Positions 12,966-22,619 of a stretch of DNA of 64,000 nt are shown in pieces. Each line of letters begins with the position of its first letter. The first letter of the stretch is position 1. The notes under the pieces were generated by a model. That model searched no databases. It was not told the DNA's origin and was given only the letters and a program-made list of their open reading frames with translations. The DNA comes from Rhizobium sp. Q54 (GTDB lineage: Bacteria > Pseudomonadota > Alphaproteobacteria > Rhizobiales > Beijerinckiaceae): assembly GCA_945878875.1 (NCBI GenBank), contig CAMCUC010000002.1, forward strand, positions 1-64,000. The letters run 5' to 3'. A program made the translations under genes and the position numbers.

Positions 12966-15053
12966 TCATGGCTGACTGCCCCAATTGAGAATGCTCATGA
13001 GATTGCTGCTTTTATCAGTCCACACCAAGTGGGAGACGCCCCCGTCGCGCCATGGCGATATGGCGCTTTTGACTTGGCGCGCTTCAAAGAAACCCTTGTC
13101 GCGCGAATAAAGCGCCCAGGAAATCGGCTGCGCGCAATCATCGCTCGTCTTCGTCTCGAACCATCCTAATTCAAGTTTGAACGCTTGCGCCATGCCCCGA
13201 TGAAGCGGCGCCATTTCAAAAGTGTCCAGCTCAAAATTGATCGCCAGCACGCCGCCGTCCGCCAGATGGGCAAGATAGACCTCGAACGCTTCCCTTGTCA
13301 TCAGATGCAGGGGCGGAGCGGCGCCGCGAAACGCGTTCATCACCAGCACGTCGAAGTTCTGGCGCTCGCCCGCAACCAGCTGGCGCTCCATCACGAGGCG
13401 CGCATCGCCAAGCTGCACTTTTATTTGCGCCCTGCTCTCTTGCAGAAATGTGAAGCGGCGATTGGCCAGATCGAGCGCAGCGGGGTTGAGTTCGTAATAA
13501 GTTACAATATCGCCCTGCCGCCCAAGGCTCGCCACCATGCCTGCGCCAAGCCCGATCACGCCAATGCGCAAAGGCGCTTCCAGATCTGCGCGGCGCTTTA
13601 CATGATGATCGAGCGCAAGGCCAAGCGCGCTCTGTGCATCAAAGCCGCAAACCGGCTGTTGCTTGCGGTCCGCCTGCTGAAATTGCAAACCCTGATCGAC
13701 GCCCGCTTGCTGCATCACGAGGCTGGCGTAAGCTGGATCGCCCGGCTCGTGCCGCACCACGCGCAACACGCCGTAGAAATTACGAATGCGTTCGACAAGC
13801 GTCTGCTCAACGCGCGTTTCCTCATAAACATTGACGCCGATTCCAAACAGAAAGCAGACGCCGGAGATAGCGCCCGCAAACCGCAGCCAATGCGACTGCC
13901 GCCACAAAAGCCAGACGCAAACCCCGCCAATGGACAGCAAAACGAGCTGATGCTCGAAATAATCGGCAAACGCCAGCGGCGCCGCAAGCGCCACAGAAAG
14001 CCCGCCAAGCGCGCCACCGAAAGACATCGCAAGATAGAATTTTGGCAGCCGGACGGCGGGCGGTTGCAGCCGCGCCAGCTCGCCATGGCAGATTATGCAG
14101 CCTGTAAACAGAACCACTAAATTCAGGCCCAGCTGCAACGCCAGATCAGCCGACGAGACCGGCTGCGCCAGCACAAAAGACGCGCCCGACAGCAGCAGGA
14201 AGGCAATTGCAAAAGGCGCGCGGCGATAGAGCTTTGCGCGCCCGAAGACGATCACGAACGACAGCAAATACAGGCTCAGCGGCGCCACCCACAAGAACGG
14301 TGCAACGCCTGAAAATTGCGTGATCGCGTTCGTGACCGCCAGCAGCAAGATAGAGCCCAGCGCCGCATAGCTGATCCAGCACAACACGGGATCGATTCCG
14401 CGCGCAGCCCGCAGCAAGGCGCCAGCATTGGCCAGCTCCTCGCCTTTGGCGCGCGCCATTGTTATGAGCCCGCACGCGAAAAACAGCACCGCATAAGCTG
14501 CAAACGCCCACGACCAGACCAGCGTCTGTGCGCCGCTGGACAGCGTGCGCTCAAAGACGAAAGGATAGGACAGCAGCCCGATGAACGAACCCAGATTTGA
14601 GGCCGCGAAAAAGCGCGCTGGCTGAAGGCCCGGATCAATGCGCGCCAGCCAGGTCGACAGCAGCGGCGACGTCATTGCCAAAACCACATAGGGAAGCCCG
14701 ACGCTGGCGGCGAGCAATGCGATGATGCGCCAATTGGGATCGTCGCCTGCGTCCGGCTTCCATGTCTCCAGCGGCGTGATCGGCAACAAAGCCAGCCCGA
14801 TCAGCAACAATGCGATTTGCGTTTTCACCTGCGTACGAAAAGGAAACGGCAACGTGATGGAATAGGCGAGGCCATAGCCCGCCAGCAGCGCACCCTGAAA
14901 AAACAGCATGCAGACAATCCACGTCGTCGCGCTGCCGCCAAACCATGGCAAAATGAACTTCGCCAGCATCGGCTGCACCTGAAACAACAAGAAACCAGCC
15001 AGCCCCATCGTGGCGGCAAAGACGACGACAATTGTCTGGCGCGAAAGCGTCAC
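12966..15053 (-). CDS. Multispanning membrane protein fused to a spermidine synthase-like domain
   Basis: A 695-residue fusion. Residues 1 to about 420 form some 10-12 hydrophobic helices starting IVVVFAATMGLAGFLLFQVQ. The C-terminal 250 residues are a class I SAM-dependent fold of the spermidine synthase family, with the cofactor loop IGVIGLGAGMVASLG near residues 493-507, the acidic TYYELNPAA strand, and LGDARLVM. Such fused proteins are widespread but no role is established; the canonical polyamine-synthase catalytic Asp motif is not evident (VMNAFRG occupies that place). The GTG start overlaps the lutA stop (GTGA), and lutB follows after 13 bases, so it is embedded in the lut operon. Confidence 0.85.
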   Translation of the reverse strand: MTLSRQTIVVVFAATMGLAGFLLFQVQPMLAKFILPWFGGSATTWIVCMLFFQGALLAGYGLAYSITLPFPFRTQVKTQIALLLIGLALLPITPLETWKPDAGDDPNWRIIALLAASVGLPYVVLAMTSPLLSTWLARIDPGLQPARFFAASNLGSFIGLLSYPFVFERTLSSGAQTLVWSWAFAAYAVLFFACGLITMARAKGEELANAGALLRAARGIDPVLCWISYAALGSILLLAVTNAITQFSGVAPFLWVAPLSLYLLSFVIVFGRAKLYRRAPFAIAFLLLSGASFVLAQPVSSADLALQLGLNLVVLFTGCIICHGELARLQPPAVRLPKFYLAMSFGGALGGLSVALAAPLAFADYFEHQLVLLSIGGVCVWLLWRQSHWLRFAGAISGVCFLFGIGVNVYEETRVEQTLVERIRNFYGVLRVVRHEPGDPAYASLVMQQAGVDQGLQFQQADRKQQPVCGFDAQSALGLALDHHVKRRADLEAPLRIGVIGLGAGMVASLGRQGDIVTYYELNPAALDLANRRFTFLQESRAQIKVQLGDARLVMERQLVAGERQNFDVLVMNAFRGAAPPLHLMTREAFEVYLAHLADGGVLAINFELDTFEMAPLHRGMAQAFKLELGWFETKTSDDCAQPISWALYSRDKGFFEARQVKSAISPWRDGGVSHLVWTDKSSNLMSILNWGSQP

Positions 15054-15838
15054 GCTTTTTCAGGCGCGGCGGCGGCGATCGGCGGCGCGTCCGTCATGCC
15101 CGCCAGCACCTCGGCCACATGGCGAACTTCAATTTTGGATCCATCGCGCGCAAGCTTGCCGGCCATGTTCATCAGGCACCCAAGATCGCCAGCCAGCAGC
15201 GTATGCGCGCCGCTGGCTTCAACGCACGCCGTCTTGGACGATACGATAGCGCCGGAAATATCGCTGTATTTGACGGCGAACGCGCCGCCAAAGCCGCAGC
15301 AGACGTCGCTGTCTTTCATCTCGCGCAATTGCAGGCCTGCTACGCTTGCAAGCAATGTGCGCGGCTGGTCGCGCACGTTCAGCTCGCGCAGCCCTGAGCA
15401 TGAATCGTGATAGGCGACAGCATACGGAAACGCCGCCTGTACCGATTGCACGCCCAGCACATCGACGAGAAAGCTCACCAGCTCATGGGTTTTAGCCGCA
15501 AACGCGCGAGAACGCGCGCTTAAAGCTGGATCGTCTTCGAACAATTCAGGATAATGGCGCGCCAGCATGCCCCCGCATGAGCCAGACGGCGCCACGACAT
15601 AATCGACGTTGGCGAACGCATCCATCACCTGCACGGCGATGGCGCGCGCATTTGCGCGGTCGCCGGAATTGAACGCAGGTTGCCCGCAACAGGTTTGCGA
15701 GGGCACGCTGACCACGCAGCCCGCATCCTCCAGCAATTTGACTGCAGCAAAGCCGATGCCGGGACGAAACAGATCGACCAGACAGGTGACGAGCAGGCCG
15801 ACGCGAATCTCTGGCCCGGCCTTGTTGTTGTCAGACAT
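15050..15838 (-). CDS. lutA: Lactate utilization protein A, CCG-domain Fe-S oxidoreductase subunit
   Basis: A 262-residue subunit of the L-lactate oxidation complex. It has two cysteine-rich CCG repeats, as in heterodisulfide reductase B and GlcF: CCGQPAFNSGDRANAR (about 50-65) with a downstream SGSCGGM, and HDSCSGLREL with DVCCGFGGAFAVKYSDIS. Together these bind Fe-S clusters. The ATG at 15838 has a strong GGGAGG site, which rules out longer frames. It heads the minus-strand operon and diverges from glcD, sharing a 208-base control region. Confidence 0.92.
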   Translation of the reverse strand: MSDNNKAGPEIRVGLLVTCLVDLFRPGIGFAAVKLLEDAGCVVSVPSQTCCGQPAFNSGDRANARAIAVQVMDAFANVDYVVAPSGSCGGMLARHYPELFEDDPALSARSRAFAAKTHELVSFLVDVLGVQSVQAAFPYAVAYHDSCSGLRELNVRDQPRTLLASVAGLQLREMKDSDVCCGFGGAFAVKYSDISGAIVSSKTACVEASGAHTLLAGDLGCLMNMAGKLARDGSKIEVRHVAEVLAGMTDAPPIAAAAPEKA

Positions 15839-15888
15839 CCGTCGCCTCCCTCGCGTGAAACAGCTTGCATCAAAACTTGATCCCAGTG

Positions 15889-15912
15889 TGCCTGCCTGCA
15901 GGCTGGCAGGCA
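15889..15912. promoter_or_regulatory. Inverted repeat in the lut/glc divergent promoter region
   Basis: TGCCTGCC (15889-15896) and GGCAGGCA (15905-15912) are perfect inverted arms with an 8-base spacer, 51 bases before lutA and 135 before glcD. Just beyond lie two copies of ATGAGCCAAA (15913-15922, 15929-15938) and two of AAGGTCCAAA (starting at 15921 and about 15953). These are good candidates for regulator binding; the regulator is not identified and is not encoded next to the operons. Confidence 0.5.
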
Positions 15913-16046
15913 ATGAGCCAAAGGTCCAAATGAGCCAAAACCTGCGCGCACGAAGGTCCAAAAGACGCACGAGCGGGACTTTGCGCGAAACCCGCGCGGC
16001 ATGTATGTTGGGCCCAAGCATGCTCAGCTGTGGCCGGGAGCGAAAA

Positions 16047-17498
16047 ATGAACGAGATTCTTTTTCCAACGCCTGATGGCGCCATCATGGATCGCCGCGAC
16101 GCCATCTTAAGCGAGCTGGCCGCCATCGCCTCGCCCGGCTGTCTCATCGTTTCCGAGGACGAGCGCCGCGCGTTCGAGACCGACGCCTTCACCGCCTATC
16201 GCCGCATGCCGCTGGCCGTGGTGCTGCCGCGCACAACGGAGGAGGTCAGCGCGCTGCTGGCCTATTGCAACAGAGCGGGCGTCAAGGTCGTGCCGCGCGG
16301 AGCTGGAACGTCGCTGGCGGGCGGGGCTATCCCGCAAGAAGATTCCATCGTTATCGGAATCTCGAAGCTCAACAAAATTCTCGACGTCAACCTGCCCGAC
16401 CGCACAATCCGCGTGCAGGCCGGGGTTACGAATCTCTCCGTCTCCGAGGCGGTTTCGCCAGACGGATTCTTTTATGCGCCCGACCCCTCCTCGCAACTCG
16501 CCTGCACGATTGCGGGCAATATCGCGATGAATTCCGGCGGCGCCCATTGCCTGAAATACGGCGTCACCACCAACAACGTTCTTGGCGCCAAGATCGTGCT
16601 CATCACCGGGGAGGTCATCGAGCTTGGCGGCGAGGCGTTCGACGCGCCGGGGCTTGATCTTTTGGGGCTGGTGGTTGGCTCGGAGGGCCAATTGGGCATT
16701 GTGACGGAGGCCACGTTACGCATCGTGCGAGCGGCGGAAGGCGCGCGCCCGGTGCTGTTTGGCTTTGACTCCAGCGAGGCGGCGGGCGCGTGCGTGGCCG
16801 CCATTATTGGCGCAGGCATCGTGCCGGTGGCGATGGAATTCATGGACCGGCCTGCGATTCAAATCTGCGAAGCCTACGCAAAAGCCGGCTATCCGCTCGA
16901 CGTTGAGGCGATGCTGATTATCGAGGTCGAGGGATCGGACGCGGAGATGGAGGCGGAGCTGGCGCGCATCGTCGATATCGCCCGCGCGCACAACGTCAGC
17001 GTGGTGCGTGAATCGCGCTCGGCGATGGAGGCGGCACTGATCTGGAAAGGCCGCAAATCCGCGTTCGGCGCCACGGGCCGCGTGGCCGACTACATTTGCA
17101 TGGACGGCACAGTGCCCACTGGCCAATTGTCCCACGTGCTCAAGCGCACGGGCGAAATCGTGGCGAGCTATGGCCTGCGCGTGGCCAACGTGTTCCATGC
17201 AGGCGATGGCAACATGCACCCGCTCATTCTCTACAACGTCAACGACCCCGCCGATCAGGCCAAAGCTGAGGCTGCGGGCATGGACATTTTGCGTCTTTGC
17301 GTTGAAGTCGGCGGCTGCCTCACGGGCGAGCATGGCGTTGGCATAGAGAAGCGCGACTTGATGCGTTGCCAGTTCAACGATGTCGATCTTGACCAGCAAA
17401 TGCGCGTGCGCGCAGCGTTTGATCCGCAATGGCTGCTGAACCCCGCCAAAGTGTTTCCGCTGGACGGACGGCTGGGCGCAGTTGAGAGCGCCGCATGA
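16047..17498 (+). CDS. glcD: Glycolate oxidase FAD-linked subunit
   Basis: A 483-residue FAD-dependent 2-hydroxyacid dehydrogenase that oxidises glycolate (and often D-lactate) with GlcE and GlcF. It has a PCMH-type FAD-binding domain (about 55-235) with the pyrophosphate loop VPRGAGTSLAGGAI, and a FAD-linked oxidase C-terminal domain (about 250-470) with HAGDGNMHPLI and GEHGVGIEKRD. ATG 16047 has GGGAG upstream, and the gene begins a plus-strand operon. The stop overlaps the glcE start (ATGA). Substrate preference between glycolate and D-lactate cannot be told from sequence. Confidence 0.93.
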   Translation: MNEILFPTPDGAIMDRRDAILSELAAIASPGCLIVSEDERRAFETDAFTAYRRMPLAVVLPRTTEEVSALLAYCNRAGVKVVPRGAGTSLAGGAIPQEDSIVIGISKLNKILDVNLPDRTIRVQAGVTNLSVSEAVSPDGFFYAPDPSSQLACTIAGNIAMNSGGAHCLKYGVTTNNVLGAKIVLITGEVIELGGEAFDAPGLDLLGLVVGSEGQLGIVTEATLRIVRAAEGARPVLFGFDSSEAAGACVAAIIGAGIVPVAMEFMDRPAIQICEAYAKAGYPLDVEAMLIIEVEGSDAEMEAELARIVDIARAHNVSVVRESRSAMEAALIWKGRKSAFGATGRVADYICMDGTVPTGQLSHVLKRTGEIVASYGLRVANVFHAGDGNMHPLILYNVNDPADQAKAEAAGMDILRLCVEVGGCLTGEHGVGIEKRDLMRCQFNDVDLDQQMRVRAAFDPQWLLNPAKVFPLDGRLGAVESAA

Positions 17499-18670
17499 TG
17501 CAGGTTTTGGCGCCTGAGACGGAAGCGCAGGCCTGCGAGGCGATCGCCAGCGCCCGCGCCGATAAACGAACGCTGGAAATTGTCGGCGGTGGCACGCGCT
17601 CAGGGCTCGGGCGCCCGGTGAACGCCGATTGCGTTCTCTCGACGCAAAGCCTGCGCGGAATCACGCTTTACGAGCCCGCAGAACTTGTGGTGAGCGCATG
17701 GGCGGGCACGCCTCTGCGCGAGATTGAGGCTCTGCTGGCGGGCAAACAGCAAGTTCTCCCCTTCGAGCCTATGGACCATCGCGCAATTTATGGCACTGAC
17801 GGCGATCCGACGATTGGCGCGCTGGCGGCGTGCAACATTTCCGGTCCGCGCCGCGTGCGTTCGGGCGCCGCGCGCGATTCGCTTATCGGGTTGCGCTTCG
17901 TAAACGGGCGCGGGGAAGCAGTGAAAAGCGGCGGCCGCGTCATGAAAAACGTCACCGGGCTTGATCTCGTCAAGCTCTCGTGCGGCGCGCATGGCACGCT
18001 TGGCCTACTCACGGAAGTCACGTTCAAGCTGTCGCCGGCGTCGCGCGGCAGCGGCACGCTTGTCATTGAGGGGCTGGACGATGCGCGCGCCATCGCCGCC
18101 ATGTCGATGGCGCTGGGGTCTCCGTTTGAGGTGAGCGCTGCGGCCCATGTCCCCTCGCAGCAGCGCACGTTGCTGCGCATCGAGCAGGCGCCGGACTCGC
18201 TGGCCTATCGGCTGGAGGCTTTGACCGGACTCGCCAAGCCATTTGGCCACGCGCGCAAGCTGTCTGACCCCGATGCGCATGAGGCTTGGGCGGGCATGCG
18301 CGACGTAGCGCCGCTGGCTGATTCAAAAGCGCACGCGCTATGGCGAATTTCCATTGCGCCCAGCCGTGCAGCCGCTTTTGTCGCCGACATGGCCACACAA
18401 AATATCGCGCAAGATTATTTTTACGATTGGGGCGGCGGGCTCATATGGCTCACAAGCGGGCTTGACGCGGGCCAGGCTGCAACACTGCAAGCCGCCGTAG
18501 CAAAAGCAAAAGGGCACGCGACGCTGGTGCGCGCAAGCGACGAGGCGCGCGCGCAATTGCATGTATTCCAGCCGCAGCCGCAAGCGATGATGGATTTGAG
18601 CGGTCGCGTTAAGGCGAGCATGGACCCTGACGGGATTCTCAATCCCGGCCGCATGTACGCAGGCGTTTAG
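17495..18670 (+). CDS. glcE: Glycolate oxidase subunit GlcE
   Basis: A 391-residue FAD-binding subunit with a PCMH-type domain in the first 170 residues (EIVGGGTRSGLGRPV, and later GRVMKNVTGLDLVKLSCGAHGTLG in two parts: GRVMKNVTGLDLVKL, SCGAHGTLGLL). It lacks the full C-terminal oxidase domain of GlcD, as usual for GlcE. It overlaps glcD by four bases and lies 9 bases before glcF, and is needed for the GlcDEF complex that passes electrons to the quinone pool. Confidence 0.93.
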   Translation: MMQVLAPETEAQACEAIASARADKRTLEIVGGGTRSGLGRPVNADCVLSTQSLRGITLYEPAELVVSAWAGTPLREIEALLAGKQQVLPFEPMDHRAIYGTDGDPTIGALAACNISGPRRVRSGAARDSLIGLRFVNGRGEAVKSGGRVMKNVTGLDLVKLSCGAHGTLGLLTEVTFKLSPASRGSGTLVIEGLDDARAIAAMSMALGSPFEVSAAAHVPSQQRTLLRIEQAPDSLAYRLEALTGLAKPFGHARKLSDPDAHEAWAGMRDVAPLADSKAHALWRISIAPSRAAAFVADMATQNIAQDYFYDWGGGLIWLTSGLDAGQAATLQAAVAKAKGHATLVRASDEARAQLHVFQPQPQAMMDLSGRVKASMDPDGILNPGRMYAGV

Positions 18671-18679
18671 GAGCAGGCG

Positions 18680-19993
18680 ATGCAAACCAGTTTCTCGGAC
18701 GCGCAACTTGCCGATCCGCACTTGCGGGAATCGGAAAAGATCCTGCGCACCTGCGTCCATTGCGGTTTTTGCACCGCGACGTGCCCGACCTATCTGCTGC
18801 TGGGCGACGAACTGGATTCGCCGCGCGGGCGCATTTATCTCATCAAGGACATGCTGGAGAACGGCAAGCCCGCCACCAAAGAAGTCGTCACCCACATCGA
18901 CCGTTGCCTGTCGTGCCTGTCCTGCATGACGACGTGCCCGTCGGGCGTGCATTACATGCATCTGGTGGACCATGCGCGCGCCCACATTGAGCAGACCTAT
19001 GATCGCTCATGGAGCGACAGACTGATGCGCGCATTGCTCGCCAATGTGCTGCCCTATCAAAACCGGTTCCGGCTGGCGCTGTTGGGCGCCTGGTTCGCGC
19101 GGCCCTTGCGCGGCGTCTTCGCGCGCATTCCGCAAATCGGCCCGCGTATTGCGGCGATGCTGGGTCTGGCGCCTGTGAAATTTGCCGTCCGTGAACCAAA
19201 TACCCCTGCGCCGCAAGGCTCTTCTTCACGCAAGCGCGTGGCGATGCTGGAGGGTTGCGCCCAGCCGGTGCTGCGCCCCTCGATCAATGCGGCGACGCGC
19301 CGCGTGCTGGCGCGCGCTGACATCGACGTGATAGCAGCGCCCGGCGAAGGATGCTGCGGCGCGCTTGTTCACCACATGGGACGCGAGGCCGATGCGCTGG
19401 CGTTCGCGCGCCGTAACGTCGATGCGTGGACCCGGCTGATGGACGATGGCAAGCTCGACGCCATTCTCGTCACCGCGTCAGGCTGCGGCACCACGATCAA
19501 GGATTACGGCTTTATGCTGCGCGAGGATAAAGCCTATGCGGAAAAAGCCGCCCGCGTTTCGGCGGCGGCAAAAGACGTCAGCGAATATCTGGCCGGTCTC
19601 GAGCTGCCGGCCATTGCGCGCGCGCAAAAGTTGGTCGTCGCCTATCATTCCGCCTGCTCGATGCAACACGGCCAGCAAATCCGCGACGAGCCCAAAAAGC
19701 TGCTGCGTGCAGCCGGTTTTGAGGTGCGCGACGTGCCGGAGGGCCACATCTGCTGCGGCTCGGCGGGCGTCTACAACATCATGCAGCCCGAGATCGCGGG
19801 CCAGCTGAAGGCGCGCAAGCTCGCCAACATCGCCCGCACAAAACCAGACGTGATCGCCACCGGCAACATCGGCTGCATCACACATCTTGCGGGCGGATCG
19901 AACGCGCCCATCCTCCACACGGTGGAGCTGATCGACTGGGCGCAGGGCGGCCCCTGCCCGCCCGCGCTTGAAGGCGCTGGATTTCCGGACTGA
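18680..19993 (+). CDS. glcF: Glycolate oxidase iron-sulfur subunit
   Basis: A 437-residue Fe-S subunit. Two [4Fe-4S] ferredoxin motifs lie in the first 100 residues (CVHCGFCTATCP, CLSCLSCMTTCPSG), followed by two CCG domains (GEGCCGALVHHMGRE; HICCGSAGVYNIMQPE). It takes electrons from the GlcD/GlcE flavins. Family length is about 410-440, so the gene is complete. The H1-like/GNAT fusion begins 53 bases downstream on the same strand and may be co-transcribed, since I see no terminator between them. Confidence 0.93.
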   Translation: MQTSFSDAQLADPHLRESEKILRTCVHCGFCTATCPTYLLLGDELDSPRGRIYLIKDMLENGKPATKEVVTHIDRCLSCLSCMTTCPSGVHYMHLVDHARAHIEQTYDRSWSDRLMRALLANVLPYQNRFRLALLGAWFARPLRGVFARIPQIGPRIAAMLGLAPVKFAVREPNTPAPQGSSSRKRVAMLEGCAQPVLRPSINAATRRVLARADIDVIAAPGEGCCGALVHHMGREADALAFARRNVDAWTRLMDDGKLDAILVTASGCGTTIKDYGFMLREDKAYAEKAARVSAAAKDVSEYLAGLELPAIARAQKLVVAYHSACSMQHGQQIRDEPKKLLRAAGFEVRDVPEGHICCGSAGVYNIMQPEIAGQLKARKLANIARTKPDVIATGNIGCITHLAGGSNAPILHTVELIDWAQGGPCPPALEGAGFPD

Positions 19994-20046
19994 TCTGTGG
20001 CGTTCTGGCCGCGCAACATCGGGCGGCGGCCCCGGAGGATTTAGAC

Positions 20047-21420
20047 ATGGCGCGGAAGACAATCAGCAAGGCTGCAGAACAGAGCGGCAAAGACGGCAAA
20101 AAAGCAGAAAAAGCTTCAGCCAGGAAAGACAAGAAGGCAGCGAGAAAGGCTGAGAAGAAGGCTGAAAAGAAAGCTGATAAAAAAGCTGATAAAAAAGCTG
20201 GAAAAGCCGCGCTCAGCAAGGGTGACAAAAAAGCCGACAAGAAAGCTGCCAAGAAAGACAGCAAGAAGACCGTGAAACTGGCATCGAAAAAGGCTGTTGG
20301 CAAAGCGGTGAAAGCCGACAAGGCGGCAGCCGGAAAAGTAGCCAAGGAAGCTGTCAAAAAGGCAACCAAGAAAACTAGCAAGAAAGCTGCCGCTCCAAAA
20401 TCTTCCAAAACGCCATCGGCAAAGGCGGTCATCAAAAAGGCGAGCGTAAAGAAGGCGGCCAAAAAGGCGGGCGCAAAAGTGTCCAAGACGGCCGCCAAAG
20501 CAACGGTTACCAAGAAAACCATCGCCAAAAAGGCTCTTGCGCCCGCTTTGCCTGCCGCCTCACGGCGCGCTGCGGCCTCGCGCAGCGCCTCCAACCGCCG
20601 CGCAACCGCTCGCAAACCCGAGAGCCGCGAAGCCCTCGTCAAGCGCACGCTGGCCGAGGCTGGCAAAAGCGCGCCTGCCCGCAAGTCGGCAAAAGTCGCC
20701 AAAAGCGTCAAGCAGCCCGGCGCAGCCCGAACGGCCCCCAAAGGCGCGTTGCCAAAGACCGCGCGCAGCCGCATCGGCGCCCGCGCCAGCAAGAAGGCCG
20801 CCTCCCCGGTTCAGGCCAACGCCCGCACCCCGGTTTCGCAGGCCACCGCAGCGCACGCGGCGCCGAAATCTTCACGAAAGGCGCCCCGCAAAGCGCCCTT
20901 CCGGATGCAGGCGCTGGGCGTTCGCGACGAACACGCGACCGATCAGCCACGGATCGAATTGCTGTTGAGCGGCCCGGCTGGCGCCAGCGAACCCGCGCTT
21001 TATTCGCGCCTTTCTGTTGAAGGGCTCGCGCAGATGCGGGCGGGCGAGCATGTGGCTTTGGCGCTTGTGGCCGAACACGATGGCGCGCTTGTGGCCCACG
21101 CCGTGTTCGTGCGGCTTGCGGCCGTCGCCGACGGCGCAGACGCCTCAGCCGTTGTGCTGGCGAGCCTCGTTGTAGATGAGTCGCTGAAGGCGCAGGGCGT
21201 TGACGAGCGCCTGCTGGCAGCCGGGCTCGAATCAGCCCGCGCCGCCGGCGTGCGCCTCGCGTTCGCGCTGGGAGACGTGGATTTCCTGGGCCGATTCGGC
21301 TTCTCGGTTGAGACCGGAGCGCGCTTTGACTCGCCGTTCAGTGGCGCTCTGCTCGGTCTCGTGCTCGACGACGAATGGGATCCGGAATTGGGGGCGGTGG
21401 AGTTTCCGGGCGGGGAATAG
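20047..21420 (+). CDS. Histone H1-like Lys/Ala-rich tail fused to a GNAT-like domain
   Basis: A 457-residue two-part protein. Residues 1-165 are almost only Lys, Ala, Asp, Glu, Ser and Thr in degenerate KKADKKA/KKAAKKA repeats, like eukaryotic H1 tails, AlgP and chlamydial Hc proteins. Residues 165-285 are Arg/Ala/Ser/Pro-rich, also basic and disordered. Residues 300-450 resemble YhbS-type N-acetyltransferases: LALVAEHDGALVAHAVF, VVLASLVVDESLKAQGVDER, then AFALGDVDFLGRFGFSVETG. The acetyl-CoA loop is degenerate (KAQGVDERL where RxxGxG/A is usual), so activity is uncertain. The tail predicts DNA or RNA binding. CGGAGGATTTAGAC precedes the ATG, and a terminator follows. Confidence 0.85.
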   Translation: MARKTISKAAEQSGKDGKKAEKASARKDKKAARKAEKKAEKKADKKADKKAGKAALSKGDKKADKKAAKKDSKKTVKLASKKAVGKAVKADKAAAGKVAKEAVKKATKKTSKKAAAPKSSKTPSAKAVIKKASVKKAAKKAGAKVSKTAAKATVTKKTIAKKALAPALPAASRRAAASRSASNRRATARKPESREALVKRTLAEAGKSAPARKSAKVAKSVKQPGAARTAPKGALPKTARSRIGARASKKAASPVQANARTPVSQATAAHAAPKSSRKAPRKAPFRMQALGVRDEHATDQPRIELLLSGPAGASEPALYSRLSVEGLAQMRAGEHVALALVAEHDGALVAHAVFVRLAAVADGADASAVVLASLVVDESLKAQGVDERLLAAGLESARAAGVRLAFALGDVDFLGRFGFSVETGARFDSPFSGALLGLVLDDEWDPELGAVEFPGGE

Positions 21421-21443
21421 AGATTGACGAGTAGCGAATAGAA

Positions 21444-21497
21444 ACCCCTCATCCGTCGCGCCTTGAGTCAGCAAGGAGCGGATGAGGGGTATTTTTC
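21444..21497 (+). terminator. Rho-independent terminator after the H1-like/GNAT gene
   Basis: ACCCCTCATCCG (21444-21455) pairs perfectly with CGGATGAGGGGT (21479-21490), with a 23-base loop, followed by ATTTTTC. It lies 24 bases after the stop. Confidence 0.85.
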
Positions 21498-21639
21498 TAC
21501 TGCCTGCTCCCCATTCCCACCTGTTGCAAAAAAGCCACCAGCCTTCCCAATGTTCTGATAAGCATTAGTGTTTGCACAAAGACTGAGCAATTGCACAATG
21601 CTTCTCCTTGCCGCCAAGTTGCCTGTGGGGATTGATGTC

Positions 21640-21663
21640 GTCAGCAATTTAGTGCTGACGGAG
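21640..21663 (+). promoter_or_regulatory. Hairpin abutting the ribosome site of the TorF-type porin
   Basis: GTCAGCA (21640-21646) and TGCTGAC (21653-21659) pair perfectly around ATTTAG, and the GGAG ribosome site (21660-21663) follows at once, 7 bases before the ATG. A stem this close can affect initiation or protect the mRNA 5' end. Upstream, TTGCACAA occurs twice (21572-21579 and 21591-21598). Function is inferred from position only. Confidence 0.45.
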
Positions 21664-21670
21664 CAAATCA

Positions 21671-22477
21671 ATGAACAAGTTCACGACGGCGGTTCTCGCC
21701 ACTATTGCCCTGACTGGCCCCGCCGCTGCGGCTGATCTTCTCTCGAAGAAGTCTCCCCCGGCGCCCGTTATGGCCGTATCCCCGTGGGATTTCGCCGCTG
21801 GCGGCAAGCTGATGAGCGATTATAACTTCCGCGGAATCTCGCAGTCGGATCGCAATCCCTCGACGACCGCTTACGGCGAAGTGCGCTATAATTTCAGCGA
21901 CAATTACCAGATGTACGCTGGCGCCCAGGGCTACAGCGTCAAGCTGCCGACCTCGCCCTCCATGGAGCTGGACCTGTTTGCGGGCGTTCGCCCCGTCTAC
22001 GGCGCGCTGTCTTTCGACATTGGCGTGATGCAATACGTCTACCCGGGCGAGAGCAAGACTGTTGCGCCCTTCAATACCGACATGACGGAAGTTTACGGCA
22101 AGGCGTCCTACGCCATCAACGACATGTTCACGGTCGGCGCGAACCTGTTCTACACCCCCGATTGGCTGGGCACAGGCTCCACCGGCACCTACGCATCAGC
22201 CACCGCCAAGGTGACCCTGCCCCATAATTTCGCACTCTCGGGCGAAGTCGGCCAGTACTGGCTGGGCAAGGCGAACACCGGCTTCTCCACCTATGATTAC
22301 ACCTACTGGAACGCTGGCGCGTCCTACACCTACAAGCTCGCCACGCTAGACCTGCGCTACCACGACACGACCCTCACCAAGACCGAGTGCGCAAACATGG
22401 CGGGCAACCGCAAGTGGTGCGGTCAGGCCTACATCGCCACGCTGTCGTTCGACATCACCGGCAAGGACATCAAGTAA
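21671..22477 (+). CDS. TorF-family putative outer-membrane porin
   Basis: A 268-residue outer-membrane beta-barrel of the TorF/Gcw_chp family (TIGR02001). A signal peptide (KFTTAVLATIALTGPAAA, cut near AAA-DLL) is followed by alternating beta strands such as GGKLMSDYNFRGISQSDRNP, the family's opening motif, and ends in a strand, AYIATLSFDITG. Members are thought to be small diffusion channels, but function is mostly inferred. Flanking terminators on both sides make it a single-gene unit. Two Cys (TECANMAGNRKWCG) could form a loop disulfide. Confidence 0.87.
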   Translation: MNKFTTAVLATIALTGPAAAADLLSKKSPPAPVMAVSPWDFAAGGKLMSDYNFRGISQSDRNPSTTAYGEVRYNFSDNYQMYAGAQGYSVKLPTSPSMELDLFAGVRPVYGALSFDIGVMQYVYPGESKTVAPFNTDMTEVYGKASYAINDMFTVGANLFYTPDWLGTGSTGTYASATAKVTLPHNFALSGEVGQYWLGKANTGFSTYDYTYWNAGASYTYKLATLDLRYHDTTLTKTECANMAGNRKWCGQAYIATLSFDITGKDIK

Positions 22478-22487
22478 TCGGGGAGCG

Positions 22488-22569
22488 TCAGGCCGGGCTC
22501 AACGTCCCGGCCTGATCTTTGCGCGCTTGAAATTTGAAACCGCGTCGCCTCCCAGCGGCGCGTTTTTTT
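22488..22569 (+). terminator. Tandem terminators after the porin gene
   Basis: First hairpin: CAGGCCGGG (22489-22497) with CCCGGCCTG (22506-22514), then TCTTT. Second hairpin: CGCGTCGC (22541-22548) with GCGGCGCG (22555-22562), one G.U pair, followed by seven T. The second has the classical intrinsic terminator form, so the pair should stop plus-strand transcription tightly. Confidence 0.8.
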
Positions 22570-22587
22570 ATGCGCAGACGCAAATGG

Positions 22588-22619
22588 AAAAGCCGCCCGG
22601 CCTTGCGGCCGAACGGCTT
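22588..22619 (-). terminator. Terminator of the L,D-transpeptidase gene
   Basis: On the minus strand AAGCCG and CGGCTT (22614-22619 and 22590-22595) enclose a second GGCC/GGCC stem and are followed by TT. It lies 54 bases beyond the L,D-transpeptidase stop, facing the porin terminators. Confidence 0.7.

Follow-up and report, generated by a model that had tools for sequence, protein, structure and literature searches.

Histone H1-like tails attached to other domains are already described in bacteria. AlgP of Pseudomonas has a 124-amino-acid (aa) predicted helical N-terminal domain and PhaF has the same kind of tail; in both proteins the H1-like tail is combined with another domain, and both have been connected with polyP and PHA granules (PMC9239181, in the available part of its text). 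Lysine-rich domains of HupB and HupS bind DNA and are acetylated, and the GNAT enzyme Eis acetylates the lysine-rich HupB in vitro (PMC11229371, available part). For GNAT enzymes, the P-loop consensus is given as Gln/Arg-x-x-Gly-x-Gly/Ala and a Tyr is the proposed general acid in PA4794, and MtAAC(2')-Ic, Hpa2 and PseH are named as active GNATs with atypical P-loops (PMC4964394, available part).

We analysed a stretch of 64,000 nucleotides, here called the window, from Rhizobium sp. Q54 (GCA_945878875.1, contig CAMCUC010000002.1, positions 1 to 64,000, forward strand). It contains at 20047-21420 (+) a single ORF with an ATG start, which encodes 457 aa consisting of a K/A-rich tail, a basic linker and a GNAT domain. 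Like AlgP and PhaF, as far as their published description was available, the window protein combines a long K/A-rich tail with a folded or helical domain in a single chain, with a net charge of +75 for tail and linker vs +55 for AlgP. The tail is C-terminal in those proteins but N-terminal here, and their heads are of another kind, with no phasin match in our Pfam scans. An earlier note on this DNA had stated that bacterial H1-like tails, AlgP among them, normally stand alone, which the helical domain of AlgP and the same tail in PhaF qualify (PMC9239181, available part). As in the mycobacterial pair Eis and HupB, where the two meet functionally, an H1-like lysine-rich tail is brought together with a GNAT in the window protein; Eis and HupB are two separate proteins, however, and Eis is an active enzyme (PMC11229371, available part). 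In the genomes G004, G035, G034 and G006, whose C-termini we call HEL1, the head of the tail gene comes from malate synthase A and is its C-terminal domain (TIGR01344, PF20659), the remainder of the enzyme being missing there; the window protein lacks this domain. The closest acyltransferases are those of the 4rs2 and 4zbg type, which we take to be YhbS-like and which are homologous in sequence over the domain, whereas the window protein lacks the usual P-loop and Tyr and carries 284 residues of basic tail and linker. Among the titles listed from the open-access literature none pointed to an H1-like tail joined with a GNAT or with malate synthase, and we know of no H1-like tail/GNAT fusion of this kind. 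This tail-head fusion would thus be what is new, and H1-like tails on other domains are what was known.

The tail-GNAT gene and its locus

A ribosome-binding site, GGAGGA, is read at 20034..20039 (+), 7 nt upstream of the ATG, in agreement with the strong site noted earlier. Residues 1-165 (20047..20541, +) form the H1-like tail, and residues 166-284 (20542..20898, +) the basic linker with its KTARSR and ARTPVS stretches. The locus L067 is the nearest relative (70% identity to the window in the GNAT part) and is taken as genome G701, since the glcF coordinates agree. The C-terminal head, placed by Pfam and PDB homology, covers residues 285-457 (20899..21417, +). Together, residues 1-284 contain K 0.25, A 0.27, R 0.07 and D+E 0.06 and have a net charge of +75, vs -15 for the head. 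The tail is long, rich in K and A and poor in acidic residues, which is an H1-like composition. The curated H1-like model NF038053 did not match the window protein at E<=0.01; two family tails gave weak matches (L074, E 0.0018; L146, E 0.0073), far under its 80-bit cut-off.

The window domain matched the solved acetyltransferases 4zbg (E 5.6e-10) and 4rs2 (E 5.2e-7); when seven fused heads were combined into a profile, 4rs2 was matched with E 3.6e-26. When the C-terminal domain alone was searched against GNAT profiles, as the earlier note had proposed, PF00583 passed its cut-off (21.7 bits; cut-off 20.7) and PF13527 stayed under its own (21.8 bits; cut-off 25); with the whole window protein both were under cut-off. 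All seven fused relatives scanned (L002-L007, L067) passed at least one GNAT cut-off. By homology, then, the head is assigned to the GNAT domains, and the earlier description of an H1-like tail and a YhbS-like GNAT in one frame stands. AlphaFold2, given a two-sequence input only (window and L067), returned a mean pLDDT of 36.6. One scan of viral contigs with the L007 head gave no relative. The earlier note had also considered that the two parts might be joined in this frame only by error; a sequencing error of this kind is very unlikely, and the objection is disposed of by eight complete fused frames in eight genomes, the window included.

The gene lies behind a glcDEF-like unit on the same strand. 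The first gene, 15609..17498 (+), is from the ORF list, its true start being inside the frame; we presume it to be GlcD-like from its sequence and the gene order, and L067 has a counterpart in the same gene order. It is followed by a GlcE-like gene at 17495..18670 (+), named by gene order (FAD_binding_4, PF01565, E 7.9e-19), and a GlcF-like iron-sulphur subunit at 18680..19993 (+; PF02754 CCG, E 1.4e-28, and Fer4 families). The tail-GNAT gene starts 53 bases past the stop of glcF. In this gap no terminator-like site was listed by a simple scan that allowed loops of 3-8 only, and the gap folds no better than its shuffles (z 0.46), as the earlier note had it. An intrinsic-terminator-like hairpin with a T-run lies 3' of the tail-GNAT gene at 21444..21497 (+), with a fold of -32.4 kcal/mol (z -4.98; none of 200 shuffles reached this stability); the simple scan missed it, its loops being limited to 3-8. 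Sigma-70 promoter-like sites numbered 0 in 15000-22600, vs 1.3 expected. The simplest reading is that the tail-GNAT gene is the last gene of the glcDEF unit and would be transcribed with it.

Downstream, at 21671..22477 (+), is a Gcw_chp gene (PF09694, E 1.2e-20), presumably outer-membrane-like. A relative of it was seen near the same slot in at least 26 of 51 genomes of the genus, the window included. Some of these have no tail gene, and several other contigs stop too early to tell.

Distribution of the fusion and the C-termini found after glcF

The fusion was counted in 11 of the 51 genus genomes (G000, G701, G007, G001, G641, G003, G013, G020, G030, G624 and G029), with eight complete frames and three cut by contig ends (G013 and G624 at the 5' side, G029 at the 3' side); these counts are lower bounds, because at L142, L148, L006 and L151 the contigs break off within or beside the K-rich stretch. 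As anchor for the synteny comparison we used glcF, which was matched in 44 of the 51 genomes at E<=1e-80. The fusion follows glcF directly in all nine genomes with both on one contig, with a gap of 49-62 bases; G013 and G624 begin at a contig edge and show the right flank alone. When the full-length profile was searched at E<=1e-45, with at most 4 candidates scored per genome, none of 396 other genomes of the order and none of 397 other genomes of the phylum, two samples that overlap, appeared among the matches listed, and in a family search of 298 genomes the top eight matches were all genus genomes. The GNAT profile alone matched 327 of 397 genomes order-wide; there the best 30 of these loci were taken, of which one is the window and the other 29 were read for K-rich sequence upstream. 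Altogether, 71 distinct GNAT loci without a fusion were read, from genus paralogs, the family and the order, and in none was the GNAT preceded by a K-rich stretch. On a free tree, which lacks L115 and L151, the fused GNAT heads need three changes; holding them together was not rejected (AU p 0.415 with 9 rows, 0.518 without L092).

The same slot also holds K-rich tails with other C-termini. In 14 of the 51 genomes a tail with a non-GNAT C-terminus follows glcF, at -1 to 63 bases (13 measured), and we distinguish HEL2 (6; G025, G008, G031, G026, G685, G487), HEL1 (4), an acidic C-terminus (3; G014, G002, G024) and HEL3 (1; G018), class names of our own that were assigned by eye from the sequence alone. 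In the acidic type an acidic stretch replaces the folded head (L080, L084 and L109, net -5, -23 and -15). G697 carries a headless tail, and in G698 and G696 the tail is cut by the contig end; G696 is probably HEL1, since a malate synthase C-terminal match lies on another of its contigs. In the remaining genus genomes no K-rich gene follows glcF (12), the contig ends too early (5), or both glcF and the fusion are missing (6). Judged by this slot, the tail gene would be dispensable in the 12 genomes where nothing K-rich follows glcF.

On the glcF tree these C-terminal labels are clustered: 11 changes are needed for 10 groups (minimum 9; shuffled mean 29.9; 0 of 200 shuffles as low). HEL1, the second GNAT type (L004, L006, L007) and the acidic type form one clade each; the window-type GNAT takes 3 changes, HEL2 2 and absence 3. 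A cut contig (L108) inside the clade explains part of the changes of the window-type GNAT, and L034 stands apart. The C-terminus is thus exchangeable, different C-termini being found at one syntenic slot.

In a genome of another family (G057) a GNAT-like ORF of a different type was seen by eye ~174-768 bases after glcF (L098); it did not match the fused-head profile.

HEL1 is the other head that could be identified. It matches the C-terminal end of malate synthase A in 4 of 4 genomes (TIGR01344, E 3.4e-10 to 9.4e-7; for the HEL1 proteins encoded at L081 and L072, E 4.1e-8 and 6.4e-6), and when compared by hhalign with seven malate synthase C-terminal domains it reached 99.2% (E 2.8e-19). The HEL1 fusion is as odd as the GNAT fusion, and its origin is clearer. 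Malate synthase A condenses glyoxylate with acetyl-CoA. Of 14 loci sampled in other families, 6 have its gene 3' of glcF and in the same orientation, directly after it in L097, L104 and L105 and within ~3.2 kb in L095, L099 and L100. Within the genus, 1 of 51 genomes (G014) had a malate synthase A over the model cut-off and G633 a divergent match in a 553-aa frame; the other genus genomes listed had mainly weaker matches, in frames of ~720-860 residues that we take to be malate synthase G. Given the gene order in other families, the rarity of the enzyme in the genus and the HEL1 homology, the tail gene appears to occupy the place of malate synthase A, and one lineage seems to have kept that enzyme's last domain.

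Loci in which a K-rich tail fused to this domain directly follows glcF are L072:2371-3186 and also L077, L081 and L090.

HEL2 and HEL3 were considered as decayed malate synthase and rejected, with hhalign probabilities of 69.8 for HEL3, 28.4 for HEL2a, 15.9 for HEL2 and 0.1 for HEL2b. Searches with a profile including HEL1 gave E 0.0027 for L087 and 0.0076 for L076. On these comparisons we propose a malate synthase origin for HEL1 only.

Unlike the head, the basic part looks constant. Between the window and L067 the last 100 aa of the linker side are 79% identical, vs 70% for the head, and the linker has dN 0.14 and dS 1.0. A core motif, ARKV-x-IRT-x-VSKPT, was built from nine HEL2 and acidic-type proteins; in 13 of 16 other tails, vs 2.6 expected, its best match lies at most 30 residues from the head, a positional result that may be inflated, since shuffling erases the composition change along the chain and the tails are mutually related. 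At most 14 of 1000 shuffles reached the motif score in the window (11), L067 (14), L006 (9), L072 (5), L077 (13) and L087 (6), and more than 14 did in the other ten tails. For a 39-residue motif, 0 of 500 shuffles reached the score in L087, L005, L006 and L007, vs 90 for the window and 122 for L067. With 55-residue profiles, near-head matches numbered 7 of 17, 8 of 19 and 16 of 23 (4.0, 4.4 and 4.8 expected). The motifs lend moderate support, and the linker is likely common to the tail types. The shared slot, spacing and tail composition hold independently of the linker motif. Tail and linker thus look like the constant part of a protein whose head is replaceable.

Catalytic signatures and selection on the head

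The putative CoA P-loop of the window, residues 381-386 (21187..21204, +), reads KAQGVD and that of L067 KGQGVD, neither of which fits the consensus; the degenerate acetyl-CoA loop noted earlier is therefore real. We compared the heads with 71 tail-less relatives, which are the best matches to the fused-head profile and not a random sample (L055 and L130 were left out as repeats; L113, L114 and L116-L120 are fused and were counted already). The last P-loop residue is G in 65 and A in 6 of these relatives vs D in the window and L067; the first is Q or R in 63 of 71 and K, as in the window, in 2. The second Tyr of the motif Y-Y-x-R-F-G-F would, judging from the motif, be equivalent to the PA4794 Tyr. 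It is found in 71 of 71 tail-less relatives and in 0 of 7 window-type heads, where F or L replaces it; in the window it is Leu 414 (21286..21288, +). The Tyr proposed as general acid is not universal in GNATs. The second-type fused heads L004, L006 and L007 all keep the Tyr, and all three have E for Q/R at the P-loop, vs 1 of 71 tail-less relatives. A consensus P-loop is present in 5 of the 7 window-type heads. L092 is cut before both motifs.

Head dN/dS is 0.18 for the window and L067 and 0.17, 0.14 and 0.16 in three other fused pairs, several of these values being rough, since dS runs from 0.44 to 2.9 and is 1.1-2.9, near saturation, in three of the four. The low ratios indicate purifying selection on the head; the domain is used, but with its signature residues lost it is probably no ordinary acetyltransferase. 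Elsewhere in the family a version that is active or binds CoA may exist, as the Tyr of the second-type heads and the consensus P-loop of five window-type heads indicate.

Net charge runs from 0 (L002, L007) to -13 (window envelope) among the fused heads and from -1 to -8 in HEL1; tail-less relatives have a mean of -2.0 (sd 4.5). Acidity is therefore no clean common trait of the heads.

Possible roles of the fused protein

We favour, at about an even chance, a polyanion-binding tether with lineage-specific heads, the window head being a probable pseudo-acetyltransferase. The protein would be a polycationic tether probably co-expressed, through the suggested co-transcription, with glycolate oxidase (glcDEF). 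From its composition and the examples of AlgP, PhaF and HupB, the 165-residue tail may bind DNA, RNA or polyphosphate without sequence specificity, and the basic linker would connect it to a C-terminal part that depends on the lineage. In the window lineage the GNAT head would be folded, acidic and non-catalytic and might serve in dimerisation, in binding a protein partner or in charge balance. Counting against such a tether are the missing common acidity, the extra changes of the window-type GNAT and of HEL2 on the glcF tree, the moderate support for the linker motif, the near saturation of synonymous sites, the active GNATs with atypical P-loops and the 12 genomes in which glcF is followed by no K-rich gene.

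The earlier note had suggested an acyltransferase tethered to nucleic acid or modifying its own tail. An active head with an atypical P-loop would acetylate the tail or nearby nucleoid proteins and so lower DNA binding when acetyl-CoA is high. This fits the GNAT homology, the consensus P-loops and Tyr kept elsewhere in the family, and the acetylation of HupB by Eis in vitro (PMC11229371, available part). Catalysis by the window head itself could still occur, since atypical P-loops are found in active GNATs (PMC4964394, available part) and a K-first P-loop in two of the tail-less relatives. But the window and L067 lack both the final G/A and the Tyr, no window-type head has the Tyr, every second-type head has E for Q/R, and 14 of 51 genomes carry such a tail with a C-terminus that is no GNAT at all. 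The suggestion thus finds no support in the window lineage and survives for an active version elsewhere; overall we consider it unlikely. Loss of the usual catalytic residues with continued purifying selection would also suit a sensor, a head that binds an acyl-CoA or a compound of the glycolate pathway and switches binding by the tail, tying the state of the nucleoid to glycolate use. The position behind glcDEF agrees with this, as does the other identified head, which comes from an enzyme of glyoxylate and acetyl-CoA. The Asp in the P-loop, however, should disfavour the CoA pyrophosphate, the malate synthase head is a C-terminal domain without the barrel, and acidic stretches are poor candidates for sensing; we rate a sensor slightly lower than an acyltransferase.

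Finally, only the tail may matter, an H1-like protein having been joined to remains of neighbouring genes that persist as relics. The variation of the C-terminus by lineage at one slot, the headless tail of G697, and malate synthase A in or near the slot in other families with its C-terminal domain as head in four genomes are all consistent with this. Relics should decay, however, and the GNAT heads are intact in the eight complete fused frames, with dN/dS of 0.14-0.18 in four pairs; we consider relic heads the least likely of these readings.

For the tether reading we tentatively propose, at somewhat below an even chance, a history in which malate synthase A, as last gene of the glycolate operon, gave way to an H1-like tail gene in one Beijerinckiaceae genus. 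The heads of the tail gene would since have been drawn from enzymes that use acetyl-CoA, namely malate synthase A, through its C-terminal domain, in one lineage and a GNAT without its catalytic features in the window lineage, giving a nucleoid or polyphosphate tether that evolves by head exchange within an operon of central metabolism. If right, the locus offers a natural series of one H1-like tail type with different heads, in which comparison of sister species could show what tail and head each contribute in bacterial H1-like proteins. Domains of a GNAT and of malate synthase would then be enzyme parts reused as heads of a polyanion-binding protein, with a possible link from glycolate metabolism to the organisation of the nucleoid or of polyphosphate.

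The window's own genome also contains a stand-alone H1-like ORF of 131 aa that consists only of K/A repeats (L112:1531-1926, minus strand; G000:C13). This ORF is a possible source of the tail.
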